Shown one piece after another: positions 50,816-63,960 of a stretch of 64,000 nt of DNA. The notes beneath the pieces were generated by a model. It was not told the origin of the DNA, searched no databases, and worked only from the letters and a program-made list of their open reading frames with translations. This DNA is from a virus: positions 1-64,000 of IMG/VR virus record IMGVR_UViG_3300030508_000015. One strand, given 5' to 3'. The translations under genes were made by a program, and so were the position numbers. Positions within the stretch are counted from its first letter, which is position 1, and each line of letters opens with the position of its first letter.

Positions 50816-53155
50816 TTACTCAAATGATAACTGCTCTTCCAGTTCTTCTGCAAATTTATGGGTCCCAAATCCTTTGGCATATGCAAGCCCTGGTATTGGA
50901 GATGGTCCCTCCAAACTACTAGAAGCTCCAGTATTGACAGCCTTTATTAATCTACGTTCCAGATTAGTACTATATAAGGTATGCATCCAGTCATGTTCAT
51001 GTGCTGGGACATCTAATAATCTTTGCATTTCTGGTTCAAATTCAGGTTTTGTCTCATTTACCGTAACATAATCGATATTATGTTTCTTCAACTCATTAAT
51101 TACAGTACTGGTGATTCTAGTTCCTATTGTATAGTGTAATTCAGGTATTTCCAAGTATAAACCTTGAGCCATATCAGTTCTGACCTTCTTACTATTAGTT
51201 CTAGGAGAATAGGCTTTCTCCAGTGTATGATAATTTACTATACTGTCTGGCAAGTTATTCCCTAAGCCTTTAGGATTGGTTATTTTAACATGAGTAATTA
51301 AACCTTTACTTATAATATCAAAATTACGTTTATTTATTCCACCTAATTGACTAGTTTCAAATGTATCTTTAATAGCTTTGGAGAAATACCTTCTACCTTC
51401 TCCAATACCTTTATGCTTTGTTATTTTAGCTGGATTAGGTATACCATCACTTAACACATCACCTTCTTCAACTAGCTGGCCTGATTTAACCAATACTTTC
51501 AAATCTGGGTGTACATAATATTCTTCAAGTTTTCCATTATCATGCTTAATAACTATATAATGACCTCCTTGTGGTGCTACTCTTACTTCTTCTATCTTAC
51601 CATCAGAGTCAGCTATTGGGGCTTCATGGACAAATGAATCCGGGATATTAAATAATTGATTGATGTATTTAAAGCCACCAAATTGATTAGAACCAGTTGC
51701 ACTACCTCCCTTGTGCTTACTATTATGTACTATTAAGCCATTCGCTAATACAAATAAAGCATCTTTACTATCTACTTCAATATCCCAACATTGTATTAAT
51801 CCTAGATACTCTGGTTTATTGTATAGTACTACCCAATAATCATTTGTAGTAACTACATCTATAGTTTCATCAATATCTTTTAGAGGCATTTCTGTTAATA
51901 CATTACTACATTCCAGGGTTTCACAAAGTATCTTATGATTCTCTGTAGCATATAGTTCAATTACTTTATCTTTATTATCTATAAATATATATTTATTAAC
52001 AGGTTGTAATCCTTGATTGAATAACCTTAGAACTTTGACTGGAGAGGTTTGACCAGCGTTATCAGAGCCAAGCACCATATCTCCGACCTTTATATCTTGA
52101 ATAGCTTTAATAGAATAATCTGCCATTCTTACTAGTGTTCCTTCAGCTAAACAGTTTAACGCCCCTTGTGCTACTGGTTCTGCTGCTGAAGTACCGGCAA
52201 CAACTCCAATAAAAGAATTAAGTTCAGACAAGCCTTTACCTCTGATACCCACACATAATTGACAAAGAGCACTAGAAGTTCCATCATGACTAGCTTCACA
52301 AGTTATAGGATTTCTAACTACAATCTCTTCTATGCCTTTGCTTTTTAGAATACCCAGCATACTAGAGGTAACTTCATTATTATAGTGATATTTGTCTATA
52401 GGATGAGCTAAGAACGAACCGATGTAATCATTATCATTTGTTTTTACAGGTATTCCATTATGAGTACCACAATCATGTTCTTCTATCACCATTGTCATGT
52501 TTGCTCTAGCTAATTGCTTGCCTAAAAACCCACCTTCTGCCACTGATAATTTTGTGGCCGCGCTGGCTTGTCTCGCACCAAAAGTATGTGCCAAATATTG
52601 GGGCAAGGTTAATCCTTCAGCAAAAGATCTATCAATAATAAAATCAGTTAGAATACCGCCTTTATTATCGTTAACGGCTACTGGGGAGAAAATAGTTTGA
52701 CGATATTGTTCGGGACTCCCTCTCGCTCCGGCTTTAACTACCTTGGCTAGAGTCTTATTATCTTTAAGGCCTTCTTCTATTATTTCCTTATTTGCAGTGT
52801 CAGAAAACTTGTTGAGCAAATTTGTTAGTTCATCATCTTCTTTCTTTTTAGGTAACTTTTTATCCTTTATGCTCTTAATCTCTTTATTGAGTTCTTTAAA
52901 TCTCTCATCTTTAAAGGAGGGTGGAAGCAAGTCACCTAGTCTGACAGTACTACCCAACCTAGTAGCTGATTCAAACCCAAGTCTAGTTAAATCTGATACT
53001 ACTTTCTTATAACTATCTTCATTATGCTCTGCTAAATTAGAGAAGAAAGCACCTATATTCTTCTTATCCAAATCTTTGCTTTCTATAAATGAATGAGAGT
53101 TAGCAGGAGAGTAATGCTTAAGCAGGATTTTGCCTACTGTTGTTACCTCAGACAT
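50816..53155 (-). CDS. RNA polymerase beta' C-terminal subunit with intein, 779 aa precursor
   Basis: N-terminal TTVGKILLKHYSPANS and LGFESATRLGSTVRLGDLL match the beta' segment after the active site. HTFGARQASAATKLSV and FLGKQLARAN, VIEEHDCGT match the beta' bridge helix. VGVVAGTSAAEPVAQ-type sequence (here IGVVAGTSAAEPVAQGALN) then SKHKGG is the trigger-loop helix, interrupted by a 144-residue intein. A long C-terminal part follows. The spliced product is about 635 residues. With the 57238-59991 and 55485-57206 genes it covers beta C-half to beta' C-half. The beta N-half is not in the window. Confidence 0.85.
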   Translation of the reverse strand: MSEVTTVGKILLKHYSPANSHSFIESKDLDKKNIGAFFSNLAEHNEDSYKKVVSDLTRLGFESATRLGSTVRLGDLLPPSFKDERFKELNKEIKSIKDKKLPKKKEDDELTNLLNKFSDTANKEIIEEGLKDNKTLAKVVKAGARGSPEQYRQTIFSPVAVNDNKGGILTDFIIDRSFAEGLTLPQYLAHTFGARQASAATKLSVAEGGFLGKQLARANMTMVIEEHDCGTHNGIPVKTNDNDYIGSFLAHPIDKYHYNNEVTSSMLGILKSKGIEEIVVRNPITCEASHDGTSSALCQLCVGIRGKGLSELNSFIGVVAGTSAAEPVAQGALNCLAEGTLVRMADYSIKAIQDIKVGDMVLGSDNAGQTSPVKVLRLFNQGLQPVNKYIFIDNKDKVIELYATENHKILCETLECSNVLTEMPLKDIDETIDVVTTNDYWVVLYNKPEYLGLIQCWDIEVDSKDALFVLANGLIVHNSKHKGGSATGSNQFGGFKYINQLFNIPDSFVHEAPIADSDGKIEEVRVAPQGGHYIVIKHDNGKLEEYYVHPDLKVLVKSGQLVEEGDVLSDGIPNPAKITKHKGIGEGRRYFSKAIKDTFETSQLGGINKRNFDIISKGLITHVKITNPKGLGNNLPDSIVNYHTLEKAYSPRTNSKKVRTDMAQGLYLEIPELHYTIGTRITSTVINELKKHNIDYVTVNETKPEFEPEMQRLLDVPAHEHDWMHTLYSTNLERRLIKAVNTGASSSLEGPSPIPGLAYAKGFGTHKFAEELEEQLSFE
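51722..52153 (-). mobile_element. Mini-intein in the RNAP trigger loop (144 aa)
   Basis: Starts CLAEGTLVRMADYSIKAIQD, contains IELYATENHKILCE (block B-like), and ends ALFVLANGLIVHN with Ser as +1. There is no LAGLIDADG endonuclease. It sits after ...VAQGALN in the trigger-loop helix, one residue before the conserved KHKGG (equivalent of TFHxGG). Confidence 0.9.
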
Positions 53156-53831: not shown

Positions 53832-54533
53832 TTAGATTTCTGGATTTCCGCCTGGTTCATCTTCACCATTATCATATTCACTATCTTCTGATTTTCTATG
53901 CTTGCTATATAGATAAGCCCCTAAACCACCTAAACCTGCAGCGCCCAAACCTAATTCATAAGGAACTTTGTTGTTACTAATATGATTGGATAATACTTCA
54001 AATAAAGATTGGGGAGAAATATCATTCTTATGTAAAGCTTGTTCTGCTCCAGTTATAGCTCCATGTATACTAGGTTTAATAGTAGTATTAGCATTTACAT
54101 TATTAAATACATTACCTAATCCTTGACCAGCATAATGAGCACCTATGCCTCCACCTACTCCAAGTCCGGCAGCAGTACCTAGTCCCATGTCACCAACTGA
54201 TTTACTTTTGAATAGTTTACTCAATACGGATTTGGCATCAATATTAGCTGGTTCTGGTTTACTATTTAATTTAAGTTGATTTCCTCCAAAGCCATCTAAT
54301 TTAATCTTATTACTTATAGAACCTAGATTAAGTTTACTAGATGGAAAGTCAGAACTAGAAGGAGCTTTAGGTATAGCTAAATTAGAAACAGCTGCCTCTG
54401 GTATAGAAGCACCAGTAGCCTCAGTAGCACCAGTAACTTCAGGTTTAAGTACATTAGCCAATTCTTCAAATGACTTAATAGGATTTGCAGAAGCTTTAAT
54501 AAATCCGTTAATAAATGCGTTATTTAGATTCAT
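53832..54533 (-). CDS. Tagged glycine-zipper protein, 233 aa
   Basis: Starts MNLNNAFINGFIKASANPIK, a near-perfect tag. Residues about 120-145 (GLGTAAGLGVGGGIGAHYAG) and 200-215 (LGLGAAGLGGLGAYLYS) are glycine-zipper segments. ATGA overlap with the upstream Gln-rich gene. Likely virion or ejection protein. Confidence 0.65.
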   Translation of the reverse strand: MNLNNAFINGFIKASANPIKSFEELANVLKPEVTGATEATGASIPEAAVSNLAIPKAPSSSDFPSSKLNLGSISNKIKLDGFGGNQLKLNSKPEPANIDAKSVLSKLFKSKSVGDMGLGTAAGLGVGGGIGAHYAGQGLGNVFNNVNANTTIKPSIHGAITGAEQALHKNDISPQSLFEVLSNHISNNKVPYELGLGAAGLGGLGAYLYSKHRKSEDSEYDNGEDEPGGNPEI

Positions 54534-55183
54534 ATACCTAGACCTTGTTGGGGTTGGGCTGATTGTGCTGGTTGGGTTGGTTGTGCAGGATTACTACCAT
54601 CCATCGGCCCACTACCATAAATACCTCCACCCATCATACCTTGTTGTTGCTGTTGTTGCATCATTTGTTCTTGTTGTTGCTTCTGCTGTTCTTCTCTCTG
54701 CTTCTGTTGCTCTTCCCTATGCATCTTAGCACGTTCATATTGATGCTTTTCTTTTAATTGTTCAGTCTTCAAATGACTCTGTGTTGCCTTCCCGCCACTA
54801 TGTAAATCTAATAGATCAGCTACACTTAATGTAACTGTAGTATCTTTTAACCCTCTAGACTGTTGTTTTGGGGCTAAATCATCACTTTGTCCTGGTTGTG
54901 GCTGACCTCCCTGACTCAGATCTTGCTGAGGTTGACCCTGGCCTTCTTGTTGCATTCCTTGGCCTTGACCCATTTGTTGAGCTAATTGAGCCATCTGTTG
55001 TGGGTCTGGTTGTTGACCTGATCCACCTTGACTTGGTTGTGGAGATTGTGAAGATTGTGGAGGTTGAGGTTGTTGCCCAGGTAAACCTCCTTGTTGTTGA
55101 GCAGCAGTACTATTAGGTGATGGTATAAATGCTTGTTTATGCATCATACTACCTATTTCTTCTAAGATTTGTCTGTAAGTCAT
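54530..55183 (-). CDS. Gln/Pro-rich disordered protein, 217 aa
   Basis: After MTYRQILEEIGSMMHKQAFI, long stretches of Gln, Pro, Ser and Gly (residues 25-100 and 160-217). The middle (DTTVTLSVADLLDLHSGGKA, then helix LKTEQLKEKHQYERAKMHRE) is the only folded-looking part. Low-complexity proteins of this kind accompany virion RNAP genes in large phages. Function unknown. Confidence 0.5.
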   Translation of the reverse strand: MTYRQILEEIGSMMHKQAFIPSPNSTAAQQQGGLPGQQPQPPQSSQSPQPSQGGSGQQPDPQQMAQLAQQMGQGQGMQQEGQGQPQQDLSQGGQPQPGQSDDLAPKQQSRGLKDTTVTLSVADLLDLHSGGKATQSHLKTEQLKEKHQYERAKMHREEQQKQREEQQKQQQEQMMQQQQQQGMMGGGIYGSGPMDGSNPAQPTQPAQSAQPQQGLGI

Positions 55184-55246
55184 ATTAAAATTGGTATTAT
55201 CTCTATTTCAAAGTTCTATCTATTATGGAGATTGATGGTAGTTATA

Positions 55247-55468
55247 TTAATGATACTTTTGTAATAGTTTCTCACTTTCCCAGGCCACAGCTTCATCAAT
55301 AATAAATTCTTCCAAGGATTTTTTAACATTAGCTAATCTACCTTGGTCTATTCTACCCTTTAATTTACTTTTAGGCAAATCAATATCTCTTAGTTGAGTT
55401 AGAGCTTCTATCAACTTATCTAATTTCTGTTGTTCGTTCAATACTAACCATACATCTCTAGTTATCAT
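55247..55468 (-). CDS. Small helical protein, 73 aa
   Basis: MITRDVWLVLNEQQKLDKLI, then RQIDLPKSK-like linker and VKKSLEEFIIDEAVAWESEK. Two helices; the start codon overlaps the stop of an upstream minigene (ATGA). Located directly after the RNAP C-intein gene. Could be an RNAP-associated factor or unrelated. Confidence 0.5.
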   Translation of the reverse strand: MITRDVWLVLNEQQKLDKLIEALTQLRDIDLPKSKLKGRIDQGRLANVKKSLEEFIIDEAVAWESEKLLQKYH

Positions 55469-55473
55469 ATAAG

Positions 55474-55488
55474 GTCTTCTTCTTTCAT
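55474..55488 (-). repeat. ATGAAAGAAGA element, copy e
   Basis: ATGAAAGAAGAAGAC whose ATG overlaps the TGA stop of the RNAP C-intein gene. The 7-residue frame MKEEDLI ends in TGA, which overlaps ATG 55468 of the next gene. Two ATGA couplings make it look like a coupled minigene. Confidence 0.65.
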
Positions 55489-57206
55489 TTCTCTATTTCT
55501 ATGTTGTCTCCTGGCTCTAAATCACCTCTGTTATATGCAGCAACTACTTCTTGTTCAGTTTTATATTTTTTAGGAGTGTTATGTTTGTTTTCTGTACTTA
55601 GTCCATAAAGGCCCAAAGCTGCTTCATTACTAGGGATTAATACAGGTTGAAAAGATTTAACAGATAATAAATTTTTGCTAGGCATCATTTTAGCTATAAC
55701 TTCTTTACGTGCTTCTTCAGTGCCTGGAATATGGACATTAAGTTGGTCTCCGTCGGAATTTTTTGTATATCCTCCTATAGTTAAGAAACTTCCGTAGTTT
55801 GGTATTTCCAAATCGTAAGCAGTATTAGATTGTAACTTAGTTACTCTTTTAACTTTCTTCCATTTTAAACTACCATTATACACCTTACCTAAATATGATA
55901 TCCATTGTTCATTATTCTTTAACTCAACTAGAAGTATTTCAATTATTTCTTTTAAAGTGCTTTTACGAAATCTATCTGTTTTAAATTCCTGGCTTAATCT
56001 ATATTTTAAATTATAAAGTTCCTTATTCTTTTGTAATTTATATTTATTATTAATAGCTGTAATTATATTTTTTTTAACAGTTTCTGAAGGAAGTGGTACT
56101 AAGTCATTAAAGTTATCACCTATACCTGTTATATCTTTTAAGCTATTCTCTAATTTTTCCTTCTTCAACTCATGACTTATTCTAAATTTTGTTCTTTCAA
56201 CTAACTTTTTAAATGTCCCAGTATGAAATCTGAAGGAGAAATTATCTTTACTACTCAGCCTAGATGCCCCTTTATATACTCCATAATTTAAATTTAACCG
56301 TTTACTCATATATCTTAAACCGTTAATTAAATGAATTGATGATGTGCAGATACTTATATTTATAACTGTTTTATTAGAAGAACTGACACTTACTGTTCCA
56401 TCAGTTGAGATTAACCCATCTAATATACCTAGTAGATGTTCTTCAGGACCGTTTAAACTAAAAGTAGGTATTTTCTTATTAAAAGCTCCACTCCCTATCT
56501 GCTCTTTTAACCACTTATTAAACCAGGCACAAGAAGCTCTAGTTTTACCTCTAGAAGTAAATTGCCCCATCATATTCTCACTAACTCTATCTATTTCTTT
56601 AACTCCATTTTCATAAGGAAGATATTCACTATTACATAAATCAGCAAATACTTTTCTATTCATTAATTTTTCTTTGGTAGAACCGGCTAAGAAAAGTTGA
56701 TTAGCATTATCTACCCAACCATCACCTAAAACCATTCCTATAAAAAGTCCGGTTTTATAATTAAGTTGCAAGTTAAATGAATTTTTAACAAATCCTTTTC
56801 CTCGTATTCCTTTCATTCCTCTAGTACCCATCATACCTTCAGCTAATACACTTGATTGAATATTGGGTGCTATAGTTGTAACATCACTAGGACAATACCT
56901 ACCTACTGCCTCTTCGGTATCAACTTCTTCAATACCACTATCAGTATAAGCTAATAAACTATGATCTTTGGCTGCAAATATAAAATCCCCATCTATAAAT
57001 TGTACCAAATATAAAGGTACATTAGGATGAATCGAGAATGTCTTTGGATTTACCCAATCTACTTCACCAGTTATAAGGTTTAATGATTTTACTTCTACAT
57101 TACTAGGTACATCATAAAGGATATTACCATTTATAGTAGTAGTGGCTGAATTTTCTATTCTAGGGAAATCTGAAATAGGTACTAGTGTATATTTATAATT
57201 AATCAT
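55485..57206 (-). CDS. Split-intein C-part plus RNAP beta' catalytic-region C-extein, 573 aa
   Basis: Residues 1-483 are intein: NVEVKSLNLITGEVDWVNPK, FIFAAKDHSLLAY (block B), LAGLIDADG motifs LFIGMVLGDGWVD and LLGILDGLISTDGTV, ending FLTIGGYTKN. The extein then begins SDGDQLNVHIPGTEEARKEV and NLLSVKSFQPVLIPSNEAAL, GLYGL, the beta' segment that follows the NADFDGD catalytic motif. Joined to the upstream GYGAD end it gives GADSDGD, keeping all three aspartates. A promoter-like pair lies 35 nt before its ATG. Confidence 0.85.
   Translation of the reverse strand: MINYKYTLVPISDFPRIENSATTTINGNILYDVPSNVEVKSLNLITGEVDWVNPKTFSIHPNVPLYLVQFIDGDFIFAAKDHSLLAYTDSGIEEVDTEEAVGRYCPSDVTTIAPNIQSSVLAEGMMGTRGMKGIRGKGFVKNSFNLQLNYKTGLFIGMVLGDGWVDNANQLFLAGSTKEKLMNRKVFADLCNSEYLPYENGVKEIDRVSENMMGQFTSRGKTRASCAWFNKWLKEQIGSGAFNKKIPTFSLNGPEEHLLGILDGLISTDGTVSVSSSNKTVINISICTSSIHLINGLRYMSKRLNLNYGVYKGASRLSSKDNFSFRFHTGTFKKLVERTKFRISHELKKEKLENSLKDITGIGDNFNDLVPLPSETVKKNIITAINNKYKLQKNKELYNLKYRLSQEFKTDRFRKSTLKEIIEILLVELKNNEQWISYLGKVYNGSLKWKKVKRVTKLQSNTAYDLEIPNYGSFLTIGGYTKNSDGDQLNVHIPGTEEARKEVIAKMMPSKNLLSVKSFQPVLIPSNEAALGLYGLSTENKHNTPKKYKTEQEVVAAYNRGDLEPGDNIEIEK
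55758..57206 (-). mobile_element. C-fragment of split intein, with LAGLIDADG nuclease (483 aa)
   Basis: Lacks block A (present at the end of the upstream gene as SIVDYIIYREKIN) but holds block B, two LAGLIDADG motifs and the C-terminal Asn with +1 Ser. The residue before the Asn is Lys (TKN), not the usual His. Trans-splicing with the N-fragment is predicted, not shown. Confidence 0.8.
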
Positions 57207-57212
57207 ATAGAC

Positions 57213-57241
57213 ACAATACGGTGACTAGTTGAACTTGTCAA
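57213..57241 (-). promoter_or_regulatory. Possible promoter between the split-intein halves
   Basis: TTGACA (57241-57236), 17-nt spacer, TATTGT (57218-57213), 6 nt to ATG 57206. It overlaps the TGA stop of the upstream gene. It could allow the C-part to be made separately. Confidence 0.45.
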
Positions 57242-59991
57242 TTAATTTTCTCTCTATAAATAATATAATCTACAATACTATCCGCACCATACCCCTTAAA
57301 TACTAATGGATTCATTTTAATAGTTTTATCTTTAGAATTTGGATTAGCAATTAAATTAAACCCTAATAGATTATATTTATGCCAGGCTGGATCTCGCGTT
57401 ATAATACCAGGTCTTACTGCCATCTCTTCCTTTAATGCCATAACTGCTAATGGACTATGTTTTTTAACATAATCAACCGCACTAATAGCTGGTACACCCT
57501 TCATAACCAACCTTCTAATAACAAAAGGTTTATATATCTGCCACAGCATATCTTGAGGTACACTAGCCTGGTCTACATCCAATCTAGTATCTGGAGTTAA
57601 CACAGCTCTTCCCACCAAATCCAGACTCTTATTAACCACCTTACTCTGAAACATTGTACTTTTAGCCGTTCCACCCTTTAATCCAAACATAGTAGCTAAT
57701 ATACCTTTAACATTCTTATCCTGGTGTTTCTTATTAATTGGATCACCCAAACCAAAGGCAGCTTTTACTCCATCATATTCATTTTGTTTTAATTTCCTAA
57801 CTACTTCGTCCGGCACATTCTCAGTATTTTTAAGTGCATTGTTATTTAGTATGAGGTCTTTATATAGATTATTAACATCACTAGTTAATACTACATCACC
57901 CATCTTACTAGCAGGTCTGTATTGGGCTGGTAGAATAGGTACTTTATGCAACATCAAATCTTTAGGATGTAACTTATGTTCTTTTAGTGTAGTGAGAAAT
58001 TCTAACAATTTAACGGCATCATCTCTTCTAGTCTTCTTCTCACTACCTATATACTTCTTCATTTCTTCTATCTTCTTATCCAGATCTATATTATTAAGGG
58101 CTTTTTCCATTTCCCCATCCACTACCATATCATTAAACTTAAACTTGGTAACTCCTAACAACTTTCTGAGATAATCCTCACTAATAGGATTAGGTATGGG
58201 ATGATTAAGATTTATGTGATTAAACTTGTCACCTAATATGCCTATTATATTAGGATCAAATAGTCCGCCAGGTTCATGTATTAGTTCTTCTTGATGTGGC
58301 TTGAATAATGAAGGTTTCTTAATTTCACCATTACTCAAAGCAGTAGTATCCTTATCTGTTAAAGGTAGGATATTAAAGGTATTACCAACTCTATCTACAT
58401 TAATACCGGCAGCTTTTAAACTATCTATGAACTTGTTAAAGATGAATGGAACTTTAGGGCTGGGTGGGGTTTGGCCCAATTTAATAGCACGCCAGAATTC
58501 ATCATTCTGAGTACCTTTAACAGTACCTATATCCTCCAATACATGTCTGACATCATGACTTAGCAAAGCTGTAGTACCTAAATTTCCTATTCTCTTTGAT
58601 GAACCACCTTCCACTGCTGACTTACTTGGTTGCCGGTCGAAACTGTATCCGGACCCCTGACTTCTAGTACTTAGTTTATCTTCACTAATATGAGTTAACC
58701 TACTATAGAATAATGGACCTACAACTGCTTCAATATTTCTACCAGTAATTGGATCATATAGTTGTTCAGTATCATTTATATTATTCTTCTTTAATACATT
58801 AATTACATTCTTAATAGATGAATCCTTTCTAAACTGATCCATTTTAATAGTCTTACCAGTCTTCTCAGCTAATTTACCAAGGCCTAGAGTTATGGCTAAG
58901 GCTGGTGCAACTCTTGACGTGATGGACATGGAGTTAAGCATGATATCAACTGGCTTCCCATTAGGTAGTAGTGGAGCTTGTGAGTCTGATACAATCTTCG
59001 TTACACCCTTAGCTCCAAAGTAATTAGAAATCTTATCACCAGGTAATAGACTTCTTACCGTCTTGATATGTACTGTAATAAGTGGGCCATGTTTGGTTAC
59101 ATCCACTACTTCTCCATCATGTTCGTAGTCCCAGGCTTCTGAATTATCTTTGAATGCATGTTTTAATACTTTACTCAGCTTACCTAATGCCAAATCTGTA
59201 CTCTTTAATGCTCTGGGTGAGTAAGCCAGGATTACCGGGTCTCCAGCTTTCAATCTAGACCCTACTATAACCACTCCATCTGAATCTATATTTTTAATTT
59301 GATTATTCGTATATTTATTAGGAAATAGTGCTACAAATTTATCCTTGCCTGCCTCTACTCCAAATTTCTCTTCAATACTAAAATTGATCATTTGTTCTGC
59401 TGCCAACTTTTTAGCACCACTTTCAGTCACTGCAAAAGCATCCTCAAAGTTGTCTGAGCGGTACGGGATTATAGCAGTAGTAAGGTTAGTTCCCATCGCC
59501 ATATTACCTTCTTTATCATTATAATTACTGTAAGCTATTACTTCATTAGTTTTAACTTTATCACCAACCTTCACTTTAGGGGTATGAGTAATAAAGCTTT
59601 TCCTGCCTAAATGAAAGTTATTATATAGTTGATAGGTAGACTTGGTTTTATCTGTATTATCTACTTTAATATGATTTTCAGTAACTTCAGTAACAGTACC
59701 AGGTTTAGTTGCAGTTACAGATAAATAATGTTTACCATATAGTTCTTGAGTACTTTCTTTGTTAGTGTCATCTGAACTTTCTACTAACGGACGTTCAGGA
59801 TTTACTAAAGGTATAGCTTGGAGAGAAGCCTTGGCTCCTAGTAACACACGCCCGCCGGAAACTGAATTTAGCCCAGTAATCATGTTAGTAGGTAAAGCAA
59901 ATAAATCCCTACTCGAAGGCATGGATATATGATCTTCATTTAGTTTGTCCACCTTCTCAAAATTTCCCTTATTAAGTACAGTATAACTCAT
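57238..59991 (-). CDS. RNA polymerase beta C-half / beta' N-half fusion, 917 aa
   Basis: I chose ATG 59991 (MSYTVLNKGNFEKVDKLNED) over a TTG at 60033. LLGAKASLQAIPLVNPERPL matches beta near the rifampicin-region end; FHLGRKSFITHTPKVKVGDK, AMGTNLTTAIIPYRSDNFED and LLPGDKISNYFGAKGVTKIV, KPVDIMLNSMSITSRVAPAL are beta catalytic-side blocks; GTTALLSHDVRHVLEDIGTV is the beta C-terminus. Then come beta' blocks: HKVPILPAQYRPASKMGDVV, GGTAKSTMFQSKVVNKSLDL, VGRAVL, and WHKYNLLGFNLIANPNS, ending NPLVFKGYGAD before the 13-residue N-intein. So beta C and beta' N are one polypeptide. Confidence 0.85.
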   Translation of the reverse strand: MSYTVLNKGNFEKVDKLNEDHISMPSSRDLFALPTNMITGLNSVSGGRVLLGAKASLQAIPLVNPERPLVESSDDTNKESTQELYGKHYLSVTATKPGTVTEVTENHIKVDNTDKTKSTYQLYNNFHLGRKSFITHTPKVKVGDKVKTNEVIAYSNYNDKEGNMAMGTNLTTAIIPYRSDNFEDAFAVTESGAKKLAAEQMINFSIEEKFGVEAGKDKFVALFPNKYTNNQIKNIDSDGVVIVGSRLKAGDPVILAYSPRALKSTDLALGKLSKVLKHAFKDNSEAWDYEHDGEVVDVTKHGPLITVHIKTVRSLLPGDKISNYFGAKGVTKIVSDSQAPLLPNGKPVDIMLNSMSITSRVAPALAITLGLGKLAEKTGKTIKMDQFRKDSSIKNVINVLKKNNINDTEQLYDPITGRNIEAVVGPLFYSRLTHISEDKLSTRSQGSGYSFDRQPSKSAVEGGSSKRIGNLGTTALLSHDVRHVLEDIGTVKGTQNDEFWRAIKLGQTPPSPKVPFIFNKFIDSLKAAGINVDRVGNTFNILPLTDKDTTALSNGEIKKPSLFKPHQEELIHEPGGLFDPNIIGILGDKFNHINLNHPIPNPISEDYLRKLLGVTKFKFNDMVVDGEMEKALNNIDLDKKIEEMKKYIGSEKKTRRDDAVKLLEFLTTLKEHKLHPKDLMLHKVPILPAQYRPASKMGDVVLTSDVNNLYKDLILNNNALKNTENVPDEVVRKLKQNEYDGVKAAFGLGDPINKKHQDKNVKGILATMFGLKGGTAKSTMFQSKVVNKSLDLVGRAVLTPDTRLDVDQASVPQDMLWQIYKPFVIRRLVMKGVPAISAVDYVKKHSPLAVMALKEEMAVRPGIITRDPAWHKYNLLGFNLIANPNSKDKTIKMNPLVFKGYGADSIVDYIIYREKIN
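57241..57279 (-). mobile_element. 13-residue N-fragment of split intein
   Basis: After ...FKGYGAD the frame reads SIVDYIIYREKIN, then TGA. The serine start and D-x-I-I-Y-x pattern match block A of DNA/RNA-polymerase inteins. The rest of the intein starts 31 nt downstream in another frame. Confidence 0.8.
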
Positions 59992-59997
59992 ATTTTG

Positions 59998-60027
59998 ATT
60001 ATATACTCTTATTATTGATTTCCACAA
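59998..60027 (-). promoter_or_regulatory. Promoter for the RNAP fusion gene, near-leaderless
   Basis: TTGTGG (60027-60022), 18-nt spacer, perfect TATAAT (60003-59998), 6 nt to ATG 59991. It is the first promoter of the minus-strand operon and lies in the 91-nt divergent gap before the + operon at 60083. Confidence 0.55.
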
Positions 60028-60082
60028 CCTCAAACTTTAGTCTTTAATTAACCTGGAATATACATTAAACTAGGTTAGATTT

Positions 60083-60433
60083 ATGAAGAGTTGGATTATT
60101 ATTGTATTTAGCTTGATTAGTATTAGTATTGAAGCACAACAATTAAATAAAGTCTATCTAAATCACTTATTAGACGCTATTTATCTAGCTGAGGGTGGGG
60201 CTAATACTAAATATCCTTATGGAGTGATTGGAGATTTTAAAAAGAGTCCAAGAATTATAGCTGCCAATACTATAAAACATAATTACAATAACTGGTTAAA
60301 TAGTAGTTCTAAAACAGATTTCTTAAGATATCTACAACAACACTATTGTCCTATAAATGCTAAAAATGACCCTAATCATTTAAATGATAACTGGTATAAG
60401 AATGTATCTTTAATAATGAAACAGTATGAATAA
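60083..60433 (+). CDS. Secreted lysozyme/transglycosylase-like protein, 116 aa
   Basis: Residues 1-19 are a signal peptide (MKSWIIIVFSLISISIEA, cut near EAQ). The mature part has LLDAIYLAEGGANTKYPYGV with a candidate catalytic Glu, then AANTIKHNYNNW, DFLRYLQQHYCP, and LNDNWYKNV. The order E ... W ... YCP ... LNxxWxxNV is a layout I associate with small phage cell-wall hydrolases. First gene of the + strand operon; translation of the next gene is coupled (8-nt overlap). Function inferred. Confidence 0.5.
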   Translation: MKSWIIIVFSLISISIEAQQLNKVYLNHLLDAIYLAEGGANTKYPYGVIGDFKKSPRIIAANTIKHNYNNWLNSSSKTDFLRYLQQHYCPINAKNDPNHLNDNWYKNVSLIMKQYE

Positions 60434-61103
60434 GTTAGATGCATTTATTAATGGTTTTATCAAGGCTGCTGGCCCACTCCCTCCACCTCCTCCACCTCCT
60501 ACACCTCCTACACCTCCAAAAATTCCGATGATTTCATTACCACACAATGCTTATACTGTTGGTGGTCTCCCTCCAAATATGCATAATTTTGTTAATAAAG
60601 GTGGTAATACCCTTAATATAAATGCTCACGGTGGTCCTGATAGTGCTATTAATGGAGAATATGCATTTCAAAGTGATTCTAATAATTCTAAAAACTTGCT
60701 TTATAACAATGAACCACTAACTTATACTCCTCAAACATTGGCTAAACTTATTGGTCCAGCTACTAACAATATCAATAATATTTATACTACTGCTTGTAAT
60801 GGTGGGGATTGCTCCAATACTAATGTGAGTCCAAACGAAGTGCTTAAAGGGTTTGCTACTCCAGCTATGTACCGTAAATTATTCCCTAATCTTACTAACG
60901 TTGTTCAAATCCCTCCCAGGCATTATGGTCCATTAATTCCAAGTCAATTTAAGACTAATGAATACCCAGACGTAGTGAATATAATAAATAGAATTATTAA
61001 AGATAGGAATCCTAATGATCCAATAACTACAAGCTTGCCTCATCAATATAATCTACAAGGTGGTACTAATTGGGTGGATAAAGGGACTTACTATAATTAC
61101 TGA
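60426..61103 (+). CDS. Tagged proline-linker protein with caspase-like domain, 225 aa
   Basis: The start MNKLDAFINGFIKAAG carries the tag; a proline-rich linker follows (LPPPPPPPTPPTPPKIP). The folded domain has NTLNINAHGGPDSAI and, about 70 residues later, NIYTTACNGGDCS, giving a His-Gly and Ala-Cys pair placed like the catalytic dyad of clan CD (caspase/clostripain/C80) peptidases. No recognised substrate. The coupled start (ATGAATAA) follows the lysozyme-like gene. Confidence 0.55.
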   Translation: MNKLDAFINGFIKAAGPLPPPPPPPTPPTPPKIPMISLPHNAYTVGGLPPNMHNFVNKGGNTLNINAHGGPDSAINGEYAFQSDSNNSKNLLYNNEPLTYTPQTLAKLIGPATNNINNIYTTACNGGDCSNTNVSPNEVLKGFATPAMYRKLFPNLTNVVQIPPRHYGPLIPSQFKTNEYPDVVNIINRIIKDRNPNDPITTSLPHQYNLQGGTNWVDKGTYYNY

Positions 61104-61104
61104 T

Positions 61105-63960
61105 ATGACAGACCGACACAATGTATATGTAGTTGAATTGGATAAGGAGGTCTTAGCTAAAAAAAAGTTTTTAAAGTTGAATCCTAACTACAATCCAGAA
61201 CTACCTCCACTTTATGTAGGAGAGACTGGTTTGAGTCCTGAAGCTAGATTCGAGAAACATAAAACTGGACTAAAAGCCAATATCTGGGTAAAGAATCATG
61301 GGCTTAGACTTAGGCCTGAACATTATAAAGATTTAAATCCCATGCCATTTCATAAAGCTGAAAGAACCGAGGAATGGTTGGCAAAGAAGTTAAGGGCTGA
61401 GGGTTATCCAGTAGTAGGTGGGAATCCTAGAACCGTACCTTTGAAGAAGGAGGCTGGTGAAGAAGCGTTACAACCTCAACAAGCTAGAGTAATTAAGAAG
61501 ATTCAAGATAAGAATACTTCAGGGTTAGTGCTTTATCATGGGATGGGTAGTGGAAAAGGATTGGTTATAGGCTCAAAGATATTAACACCTACAGGGTGGA
61601 TAAATATAGAAGATATAAAACAAAACACAGAAGTGATTTCTGTTAATGGTGTGAAAGCTAATGTGACTGGAGTCTATCCTCAAGGGTATAAAGATGTGTA
61701 TAAAATTACTTTTAGGGATGGTGCTACTATAGAATGTGATGATTCTCATTTATGGTTCACTCAATCTAGATGTGAACGTAAAAATTACGTTAAAAGCAAG
61801 GATCAATTTAAATATAGGTGGGTAGGTAAAGTCAGGAGTACAAGCGAAATTAAAGATACAGTATTATCTAATGATAATAGTTTAAATTATACTATTCCTA
61901 TTGTGAAACCTATTCATTTTAAATATAGAAAACTTCCACTAGACCCGTATTTTGTTGGTTTGATTTTAGGAGATGGTAGTATTTGTGGAGGTGGCTGTGC
62001 GATAACAACAGCAGATGACGAAATTCTGCAATCAATTAAGTCTTTATTTCCAAATTTTACTCTTAAAAAATATTCTAAATATACTTATGGATTAGGTAAA
62101 CCAAAAGGATATAACAGTTACATTGTTCAAGCATTTAAAGAATTAAAATTACAAGGTATGAATTGTTTTACAAAATTTATACCTGATATTTATATGTTTA
62201 ACACAGTGAAATCTCGCATAGCATTATTACAAGGGTTAATGGATACTGATGGTACTGTAAGTAAAGATGGTATGGCTATAGTTTATGAGTCCGTCTCAAA
62301 ACAGTTAGCAGATGGTGTGCAATTCCTTGTTGAATCACTAGGAGGTTTAGCAAAGATAACAACTAGAATTCCAACATATTCATATAAAGGAGAAAAAAAG
62401 AAAGGAGCTTTATGTTATAGGGTTTGGTTAAGTTTACCACCAAATATCAATCCATTTAGATTACACAGAAAAGCAATTCAAGTAATTCCTAAGACTAAAT
62501 ATAAACCAACTAGATATATAAAAAGTATAGAATATGTTGGAAAAAAAGAGACAATCTGTATTGCAATCGATGACCCTTCTCATCTATATATTACTGAACA
62601 TTGTATAGTTACGCACAATACACGCGAAAGTATTGAATCCTGGAAAGCATTAGGATTACCTAAGACTGATATCATTGTTCCAGCTTCATTAAAATCCAAC
62701 TATCGTAAAGAGTTGCAGAGATGGTATGGCAATTCTAATCCTTCTAATATCAACTTAATTAGTCAACAAAGATTTGCTAATTCTAAGTTAAATACTCCAA
62801 TATACAATACTGGTTTGCAGATAGTAGATGAAGCTCAAAAAGCTAAAAATAGTAATAGTGAATTATATCAAGCATTGGTTAAAACGAATCCAGCCAAGCG
62901 CCTTCTCCTTTCAGGAACTCCAATTCTAAATGATCCTACTGAATTAAGTAATCTTGTTAACTTAGTAGCAAAGAAACAAGTATTACCTAATAATTTATCT
63001 GAGTTTAAAAAACAATATTTTAAACAGGAAGAAGTTAAACCTGGATTTTTTGGTAGATTAATGGGAGTTTCTCCAGGCATTCAATATAAGCTACAGAATA
63101 AAGCTCAACTATCTAAGATTCTGGATAAGTATGTTGACTACTATAAACCTACTCAAGAAGGATATCCTACTGTGACGGAGCAAGAAGTTAATGTTCCTAT
63201 GGGTGCTAAACAACAAGAGATATATGATACAATACTCGGAAAGACACCATTTTGGACACGTTATCGAATTAAACATAATTTACCTCCTGGACGTGGTGAA
63301 TTAGAAGGTATGCGAGCATTTTTAAGTGGACCTAGACAAGTAAGCAATTCAACTGCTGGATTTACTAAAAATTTAAGAGACGTGGAATCCCCTAAAATAG
63401 ATGCAGCTTTTAAGTTTTTACAAATACAATTAAAACAAGATCCAAACTATAAAGCTCTAGTATATAGTAATTATCTTAATAATGGTCTTAGACCTTATGA
63501 ATCATTATTAAGAAAGAATAATATACCATTTGGAGAGTTTAGTGGAGCTGTAACACCTACTATAAGAGACCAGGCAGTTAAAGATTATAATGCTAATAAA
63601 TTAAGAGCATTATTAGTATCAGGAGCTGGGGCTGAAGGATTGGATTTGAAGGCTACAAATTTGACACAACTTTTGGAACCTTTTTGGAACCTTCCTAAAG
63701 AGAGACAAGTTATCGGAAGATCAGTACGTTTCCATAGTCATGATAGTTTGCCTCCAGAAAAGAGAAAGGTTTTAGTGCAACGTTATTTTGCCACACCAAA
63801 ACCTAGTTTATTGGATAAACTTACATTCAATCCCAAACCTACTGGTACAGATTCATATATTAGAAATTCAATCAGTAAACCAAAAGATAATCTTAATCAA
63901 GAAATAACTAATTTAATAGCCAAGAATCAAGAACCTAAATCTTGGCTTAACTACAATTAA
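61105..63960 (+). CDS. GIY-YIG - SNF2-type helicase with intein in Walker A, 952 aa precursor
   Basis: I chose ATG 61105 (MTDRHNVYVVELDKEVLAKK), 1 nt after the preceding stop. The N-terminal 110 residues (VYVVEL, PPLYVGETGLSPEARFEKHK, AERTEEWLAKKLRAEGYPV) are a GIY-YIG-like nuclease fold. The helicase core has YHGMGSGK (Walker A, cut by the intein), then TRESIESWKALGLP, IVDEAQKAKN (motif II), LLLSGTPILND (III), and ERQVIGRSVRFHSH (VI). After intein removal the protein is about 598 residues. Probably acts on DNA recombination or replication; no exonuclease motif seen. Confidence 0.75.
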   Translation: MTDRHNVYVVELDKEVLAKKKFLKLNPNYNPELPPLYVGETGLSPEARFEKHKTGLKANIWVKNHGLRLRPEHYKDLNPMPFHKAERTEEWLAKKLRAEGYPVVGGNPRTVPLKKEAGEEALQPQQARVIKKIQDKNTSGLVLYHGMGSGKGLVIGSKILTPTGWINIEDIKQNTEVISVNGVKANVTGVYPQGYKDVYKITFRDGATIECDDSHLWFTQSRCERKNYVKSKDQFKYRWVGKVRSTSEIKDTVLSNDNSLNYTIPIVKPIHFKYRKLPLDPYFVGLILGDGSICGGGCAITTADDEILQSIKSLFPNFTLKKYSKYTYGLGKPKGYNSYIVQAFKELKLQGMNCFTKFIPDIYMFNTVKSRIALLQGLMDTDGTVSKDGMAIVYESVSKQLADGVQFLVESLGGLAKITTRIPTYSYKGEKKKGALCYRVWLSLPPNINPFRLHRKAIQVIPKTKYKPTRYIKSIEYVGKKETICIAIDDPSHLYITEHCIVTHNTRESIESWKALGLPKTDIIVPASLKSNYRKELQRWYGNSNPSNINLISQQRFANSKLNTPIYNTGLQIVDEAQKAKNSNSELYQALVKTNPAKRLLLSGTPILNDPTELSNLVNLVAKKQVLPNNLSEFKKQYFKQEEVKPGFFGRLMGVSPGIQYKLQNKAQLSKILDKYVDYYKPTQEGYPTVTEQEVNVPMGAKQQEIYDTILGKTPFWTRYRIKHNLPPGRGELEGMRAFLSGPRQVSNSTAGFTKNLRDVESPKIDAAFKFLQIQLKQDPNYKALVYSNYLNNGLRPYESLLRKNNIPFGEFSGAVTPTIRDQAVKDYNANKLRALLVSGAGAEGLDLKATNLTQLLEPFWNLPKERQVIGRSVRFHSHDSLPPEKRKVLVQRYFATPKPSLLDKLTFNPKPTGTDSYIRNSISKPKDNLNQEITNLIAKNQEPKSWLNYN
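61558..62619 (+). mobile_element. Intein with LAGLIDADG nuclease in the P-loop (354 aa)
   Basis: Lies between GMGSGK and T, splitting Walker A before the conserved Thr. It starts GLVIGSKILTPTGWINIEDI, ends HLYITEHCIVTHN, with +1 Thr. The endonuclease motifs are YFVGLILGDGSIC and LLQGLMDTDGTVS. The first residue is Gly rather than the usual Cys/Ser. Confidence 0.85.

Follow-up and report, generated by a model that had tools for sequence, protein, structure and literature searches.

A putative naturally split, serine-based intein in the catalytic aspartate loop of a phage RNA polymerase

Background

Several naturally split inteins with very short N-terminal parts have been described. In PMC10189870 the 15-residue N-part of PolB16 OarG is given as the shortest characterised, and PMC13014065, which places natural short N-parts between 15 and 37 residues, also calls that of PolB16 (15 residues) record-short. 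Here we analysed a locus in which an intein appears to be divided over two open reading frames (ORFs) within the catalytic aspartate loop of the beta' subunit of a phage RNA polymerase (RNAP). The locus lies in bases 1-64000 of the 151,189-base virus record IMGVR_UViG_3300030508_000015 of IMG/VR, and this 64,000-nucleotide stretch, the whole of the DNA analysed, is referred to below as the window.

Like PolB16 OarG as described in PMC10189870, the intein found here has a natural split near the N-terminus, Ser at positions 1 and +1, a short N-part, a metagenomic origin and a polymerase gene as its host, which in the case of PolB16 is a PolB-type DNA polymerase. It differs from PolB16 OarG (15-residue N-part, 168-residue C-part) in having a 13-residue N-part, a 483-residue C-part with a LAGLIDADG domain, and RNAP beta' as the host protein, and also in that the His of its NX motif is not preceded by Arg or Lys. 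VidaL (16 residues) and AceL-TerL (25 residues), as cited in PMC13014065, share the short N-part and the natural split near the N-terminus; as described there they depend on cysteine, unlike the Ser-based intein considered here. Our 13 residues are fewer than the 15 of the record given in PMC10189870 and PMC13014065, in agreement with the earlier note on this DNA, which put the N-fragments of atypical natural split inteins at about 15-25 residues. Since PMC13014065 cites as working an artificially split M86 intein with an N-part of only 11 residues, a part of 13 residues is feasible.

The Ser1 inteins in the DNA polymerases of Campylobacter phage CC_R7, Salicola phage SCTP-2, Pseudomonas phage Cassandra and Klebsiella phage KP13-7 have in common with our intein Ser1, the NX His and the DHS of block B; unlike it they show no break near the N-terminus. 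An archaeal intein in the RNAP A'' subunit (NF011491) sits in another part of the largest subunit than the site described here, and is presumably contiguous. An intein in the A' subunit of the M. jannaschii RNAP is mentioned in PMC1635734. A different way of reading across a gap is that of T4 topoisomerase gene 60, in which, according to PMC5009743, ribosomes pass over 50 nucleotides between matched GGA codons, with a stop codon after the first. In the open-access literature, with subscription papers mostly outside its scope, we recognised no report of a split intein in RNAP beta' or of a split intein with a short N-part and an endonuclease domain in the C-part.

Results

The first of the two ORFs (N ORF), which most likely starts at the ATG at 59991 (MSYTVLNKGN; MRYTVLDKGN in the related phage L025) rather than at the mechanical TTG at 60033, encodes a fusion of beta (C-terminal part) with beta' (N-terminal part). 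It reads NPLVFKGYGAD up to the first Asp of the catalytic motif, the codon of which ends at 57280, and closes with 13 residues and a TGA. The second (C ORF) begins 31 nucleotides further on, at the ATG at 57206, in a different frame, and stays open for 573 codons, passing through block B, two LAGLIDADG motifs with their acidic residues (GDG and TDG) and a terminal TKN into SDGDQLNVHIP, the start of an extein whose coding part is 55757-55488 and whose stop is 55487-55485. The earlier note had described both ORFs in these terms, from the block-A sequence of 13 residues to the TKN; every one of these elements was recovered on the minus strand, and its limits of 55485 and 57279 proved correct for the C ORF stop and for Ser1, respectively.

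Joining the exteins, as the same note had pointed out, yields the catalytic motif with its three metal-binding aspartates, and relatives carry this loop uninterrupted. In phage L025, which is 78% identical in the N ORF, a single ORF reads GFGADNDGDQLN with the motif GADNDGD and thus has an empty site; no match to the intein was found in its record. The loop is also contiguous in Salmonella phage Arash (GYAADYDGD), in L026 (GFGADFDGD) and, as in Arash, in Vibrio phages D69 and D181 (AADYDGD). Of 23 viral loci with this RNAP, three are intein-bearing contigs identical to ours and 16 of the other 20 have a contiguous motif, several of the 16 being close kin of each other; in L040, L042 and L044 the contiguous motif lies upstream of the matched part, hence in a different gene order, and in four of the 20 (L031, L036, L041 and L043) the motif was not seen. 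Extein homology ends precisely at the junctions Asp|Ser1 and Asn483|Ser+1, so that the intein site falls after the first Asp of the D-x-D-G-D loop, and Ser, the nucleophile required at +1, occupies a position that is Asn, Phe or Tyr in relatives. The exteins were also recognised by Pfam: the N ORF matched RNA_pol_Rpb2_6 (E=4.8e-45), Rpb1_1 (E=9.5e-10, 38.7 bits against a cut-off of 39.7) and, above cut-off, Rpb1_2 (E=7.8e-06), and the C ORF matched Rpb1_2 below cut-off (E=0.0073). When compared with the PDB by sequence the C-extein matched RNAPs, among the best 60 of 89 matches, with a cellular beta' at best E=3.1e-09.

The stop, the spacer and the ATG are base-identical in three other IMG/VR contigs, the loci of which showed zero mismatches to the window over 14,760, 14,760 and 7,979 nucleotides, the last up to the contig end. 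All four gap-bearing records represent one population, possibly from one sampling site; the identity of the gap therefore rules out a random assembly error but not a shared allele. We also considered a recoded TGA stop. Readthrough would run into a further stop while still in the N frame, so a recoded stop cannot join the two parts.

Ser1, Ser+1 and a C-terminal Asn are all present (Asp|S...TKN|S), and the two serines place the predicted intein with those class 1 inteins that work through oxyesters and do not depend on cysteine; neither junction has any of the four Cys of the C-part. In Pfam searches the C ORF matched LAGLIDADG_3 (PF14528, E=8.4e-08) above cut-off and Intein_splicing (E=2.7e-06, 27.7 bits) under the cut-off of 35.8; the Intein_splicing search of the whole record returned 0 of 1 matches at its E limit, the value of 2.7e-06 coming from hmmscan of the C ORF alone. 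The best NCBIfam match of the intein was the archaeal intein-bearing RNAP A'' model NF011491 (residues 17-479, E=7.8e-15), far under the whole-protein cut-off of that model. Comparison of the intein with the PDB by sequence gave nothing meaningful, and a structure predicted for the C-part from the single sequence had a mean predicted local distance difference test (pLDDT) value of 34 and was not used.

For alignment the halves were joined at a short repeat described below, with the C-part less its first three residues, and compared with seven Ser1 phage inteins. This reference set is a picked subset, six from 24 phage records chosen to differ and one from two further loci, and its CC_R7 and CP21 members are near-identical to each other. 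The joined halves align over the N-terminal 115 residues, and the NX His and the DHS of block B are in register; block A is short by one residue, and the first hairpin is longer by a few. The alignment was global, so that the N-end is placed by construction. The block B histidine (DHS) is present in 7/7 references and in our intein. A pairwise test, designed after a profile hidden Markov model (HMM) had given no support, took the mean score of the 13-mer against the seven reference N-ends. The real 13-mer was reached by 4/905 13-mers of the N ORF, 8/560 of the C ORF, 10/2,000 shuffles and 73/2,000 shuffles with Ser fixed, and, when the following strand was added, by 3/905.

The break itself looks like a 43-nucleotide insertion, made up of one copy of the repeat ATTAATT and the 36 nucleotides between the two copies, in the absence of which the intein would be one frame (...REKINYKYTLVPI...). 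Stop and start would both come from the putative insertion: the TGA arises at its left edge, and the ATG stands immediately 5' of the second repeat, adjoining the residues that continue the intein. In 5,000 simulations a repeat of at least 7 nucleotides was found anywhere in the flanks in 0.41, and one in exact abutment to the stop and start in 0.0002, the abutment having been noticed before it was tested. In our reading the repeat-flanked insertion is probably the trace left when a contiguous intein was split. No other copy of the insert was found in the record at up to three mismatches, nor any exact match in IMG/VR beyond the same three contigs. That the C-part begins precisely with an ATG speaks for two polypeptides. 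No Shine-Dalgarno-like site precedes this ATG. Such sites were seen at 10/87 predicted starts (the first ATG of mechanical ORFs in the window, L018 and L019), the C-part start not being among them, so their absence is normal in this phage. Few Shine-Dalgarno sites are also found in Bacteroidota.

A candidate promoter in the gap, TTGACA-17-TATTGT (57241-57213, minus strand), which would place +1 on the ATG and give a leaderless message, was not counted as evidence. The window contains two sites that fit TTGACA-N17-TATNNT exactly, of which this is one; when a single mismatch was allowed, 18 sites were found against 12.4 expected, and 8/100 shuffles had as many. Promoter-like sites in 54000-61500 numbered 18, fewer than in shuffles (32.5). 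TANNNT occurs at promoter distance from 17/87 predicted starts, that of the C-part included.

Table 1. Positions in the window of the parts of the interrupted RNAP gene and of its putative split intein
Feature	Position	Strand	Basis
N-extein: C-terminal part of RNAP beta fused to N-terminal part of beta', ends GYGAD	57280..59991	-	Pfam, relatives
Intein N-part, 13 residues SIVDYIIYREKIN, Ser1 first	57241..57279	-	extein boundary, alignment
TGA stop of the N-part ORF, immediately 3' of codon AAT	57238..57240	-	
Spacer of 31 nucleotides between the ORFs	57207..57237	-	
ATTAATT, copy 1 of the 7-nucleotide repeat bordering the putative 43-nucleotide insertion	57240..57246	-	
ATTAATT, copy 2, immediately 3' of the C-part ATG	57197..57203	-	
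Intein C-part, 483 residues (M-INYKYT...GGYTKN), splicing blocks and LAGLIDADG domain	55758..57206	-	
FSIHPNV, in which His60 (C-part numbering) aligns to the NX-motif His of Ser1 inteins	57018..57038	-	
Block B (N3) FIFAAKDHSLL with conserved His	56952..56984	-	
LAGLIDADG motif 1, LFIGMVLGDGW	56715..56747	-	
LAGLIDADG motif 2, LLGILDGLISTDG	56397..56435	-	
C-terminal blocks YDLEIPNYGSFLTIGG-YTKN / Ser+1	55755..55817	-	
C-extein SDGDQLNVHIP..., remainder of the catalytic motif, 90 beta' residues in total, with stop	55485..55757	-	Pfam, relatives
Separate beta' C-terminal ORF, with a contiguous mini-intein of its own (144 residues, 51722-52153)	50816..53155	-	

Discussion

The arrangement of the two ORFs suggests an atypical, naturally split class 1 intein with Ser1 and Ser+1 that rebuilds the catalytic Asp loop of RNAP beta' by protein trans-splicing, a reading to which we give a probability of about two in three. 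From the sequence we infer that both parts are translated, associate and splice, that the RNAP depends on this splicing and that the element may be capable of homing. The phage would make two polypeptides, one consisting of the beta-C/beta'-N fusion with the 13-residue N-part and the other of the 483-residue C-part with the next 90 residues of beta'. Upon their association the intein fold would be completed; judging by the alignment, the N-part may supply only the first strand of this fold and the stretch YKYTLVPI of the C-part the second. Ser1 and Ser+1 would form the oxyester intermediates, the C-terminal Asn would cyclise, and the exteins would be joined as GYGAD-SDGDQLNVHIP (peptide spanning GYGADSDGDQLNVHIP), restoring all three metal-binding aspartates. 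As both halves lie in 1,522 bp of contiguous DNA (55758-57279), homing of the whole unit is possible, and the LAGLIDADG nuclease could still copy the split element into empty RNAP genes.

The record has one Rpb1_2 locus in 151 kb, its two matches being the two sides of the break, and one set of beta/beta' pieces. With a single catalytic beta' locus, the phage RNAP would lack its catalytic loop if splicing did not occur. Several relatives have records of 172-187 kb, and the 151-kb record may be incomplete. Beta itself is distributed over three distant ORFs on both strands (L018:1402-2100, plus; L018:15586-16272, minus; window 57238-59991, minus), and in Arash beta and the N-terminal part of beta' are in one gene. 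At the other breaks in this RNAP, namely those between the three beta ORFs and before the separate C-terminal part of beta', no intein was seen, suggesting that gene fission is ordinary here and that the active-site break is the exception in having an intein. If the intein does splice, its N-part would fall below the 15-residue record of PMC10189870 and PMC13014065, and an atypical split would here go together with a LAGLIDADG domain retained in the C-part. It would also lie in the metal-binding loop of a multisubunit RNAP, making assembly of the polymerase dependent on a bond-making reaction between two proteins. A single short insertion bringing both a stop and a start would be a plausible first step from a contiguous to a split intein, and a short Ser-based N-part would be directly useful for protein labelling.

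Several observations weigh against trans-splicing. Block A is degenerate (SIV-DYII), one residue short and with Tyr where Ser1 inteins have Thr or Ser; block B has Ala in the usual place of Thr, and the penultimate residue is Lys. The NX His (His60) is preceded by Ile, whereas Arg/Lys-His was found in 7/7 references, and for the Ser1 inteins tested by Pasch et al. PMC10189870 describes this His as critical and invariably preceded by Arg or Lys. Departures at splicing residues have been noted in another RNAP intein, in which Gly-Asn replaces His-Asn (PMC1635734). The best control 13-mer in the pairwise test scored 9.4 against 3.6 for the real one. An intein HMM search had been proposed in the earlier note as a check; it did match the C-part, below cut-off as given above, and the 13-mer earned no weight in it. 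With the profile HMM of the seven Ser1 inteins, 93/905 13-mers of the N ORF, 212/500 shuffles and 113/300 Ser-fixed shuffles scored as high, the C-part alone reached 15.9 bits as compared to 15.5 with the 13-mer, and adding the 13-mer did not raise the Pfam or NCBIfam scores either. As the pairwise and HMM results differ, it is the placement of Ser1 at the extein boundary, and not a score, that carries the argument. Finally, just one phage population was found to carry the split intein (3/18 records behind the loci compared, all of this population), and because its four records do not differ in the stretches compared, they give no evolutionary proof for maintenance of the split form.

The same features might be those of an intein in decay, that is, a once contiguous intein broken by the 43-nucleotide insertion, with splicing lost, the RNAP dying or dispensable and the phage using the RNAP of its host. 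We consider this unlikely. It would account for the degenerate blocks A and B, the penultimate Lys and the restriction to one population, and also for our finding no contiguous allele of the intein in a single scan of IMG/VR with a degenerate pattern; the two hits proved unrelated once translated, and records very near the window may escape such a scan. However, the C ORF is open over its 573 codons and its initial ATG is placed precisely as required, no closed frame was seen among the other RNAP ORFs found, and the exteins are conserved relative to L025, with proportions of nonsynonymous differences (pN) of 0.145 and 0.200 and of synonymous differences (pS) of 0.81 and 0.89, though much of this divergence may predate the insertion. 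Searches for relatives returned none of the N ORF or the intein in genome_contigs and, with single-protein queries that reach close relatives only, none of the intein in IMG/VR but itself. In a tblastn search of phages with the C ORF 24 records were matched, by weak intein/nuclease matches and by C-extein matches, and among the matches listed the lowest E for the intein/nuclease part was 5e-5, to a helicase of Xanthomonas phage LucasX.

It is also conceivable that the intein is made as one cis-splicing polypeptide by programmed ribosomal bypassing, in which ribosomes would hop 43 nucleotides from the AAT before the TGA to a second AAT and go on with TAT AAA TAT (...YREKINYKYTLVPI...). The earlier note did not name this rival, which is compatible with the sequence; of its interpretation, what finds support is an intein that is divided over two ORFs, interrupts the D-x-D-G-D loop, has Ser1/Ser+1 and bears a LAGLIDADG domain in the C-part. 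The repeat flanking the gap is what a bypass needs and so speaks against trans-splicing: it puts matched AAT codons on either side with the TGA directly after the first, it stands directly against the stop and start as in only 0.0002 of the 5,000 simulated flanks, and a hop would lead into the correct frame, the intein N-terminus so formed being one that can be aligned with Ser1 inteins. In its short out-of-frame gap, similar in size to that of gene 60, in the stop directly after the take-off codon and in the matched landing codon, the locus resembles gene 60 as described in PMC5009743. Unlike gene 60 it has an ATG before the landing codon, needless for a hop, and neither a strong hairpin (the gap RNA is unexceptional, with a z of -1.16 and 29/200 shuffles folding as well) nor a Shine-Dalgarno-like element before the landing codon. 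Where a nascent-peptide signal might be sought, some 30 residues upstream, there is a Lys-rich stretch, but L025 shares it as part of its RNAP sequence. As phage cases PMC5009743 names gene 60 and a candidate in phage Hau3, next to 81 cases in one yeast mitochondrion. We regard bypassing as slightly less probable than decay. To the same low degree the 43-nucleotide insert might be a bypass element in an intein gene whose gap ATG also gives a separate C-part, in which case one locus would feed both cis- and trans-spliced RNAP.

Assembly of the halves without splicing, as in other fragmented phage RNAP subunits, is very improbable, since although beta is in three ORFs here with no intein sequence seen in them, this break falls within the catalytic Asp loop, and with the C-part 483 intein residues would remain on the strand of the active site. 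An assembly or sequencing error as the source of the stop and frame change is just as improbable; the source is metagenomic, yet at least two single-base slips would have to be assumed for a stop-free passage from the N into the C frame, and the same bases recur in three other contigs, though possibly of a shared sampling site.

Other inteins and neighbouring features

The mini-intein in the separate beta' C-terminal gene begins with Cys1 (CLAEGTLV...GLIVHN|S) and lies between GALN and SKHKGG. Matches of this gene in the L025 and L026 records break at residues 334/478, which is the mini-intein site, and L025 is without it. An SNF2-like helicase in the window has a 354-residue LAGLIDADG intein (61558-62619, plus strand) within its Walker A motif (GSGK|G...HN|T). 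Its first residue is Gly, a W follows the block B His, the C-terminal block contains Cys and the final HN is preceded by Thr, all of which gives it the look of a class 3 (WCT) intein in the sense of PMC7891396.

The beta gene, a single coding sequence (CDS) in Vibrio phage D69, is in two pieces in Vibrio phage D181, with a gene annotated as a homing endonuclease (L009:11345-11962) between them. Close behind the first beta fragment, at L018:2394-3092 (minus strand), is a free-standing ORF of endonuclease-like look (YTLGFIWADGS). Two ORFs at L019:7434-7799 and L019:8260-8649 (minus strand) consist mostly of Thr-Leu/Thr-Met repeats and are for this reason probably a simple DNA repeat tract rather than genes.

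As for the DNA-polymerase Ser1 inteins of Cassandra and KP13-7 (L058 1-3339 and L059 1-3330), in both the CDS ends some 117-125 residues into the intein and is followed by another gene, annotated in Cassandra as a homing endonuclease; these two are possibly canonical split inteins.

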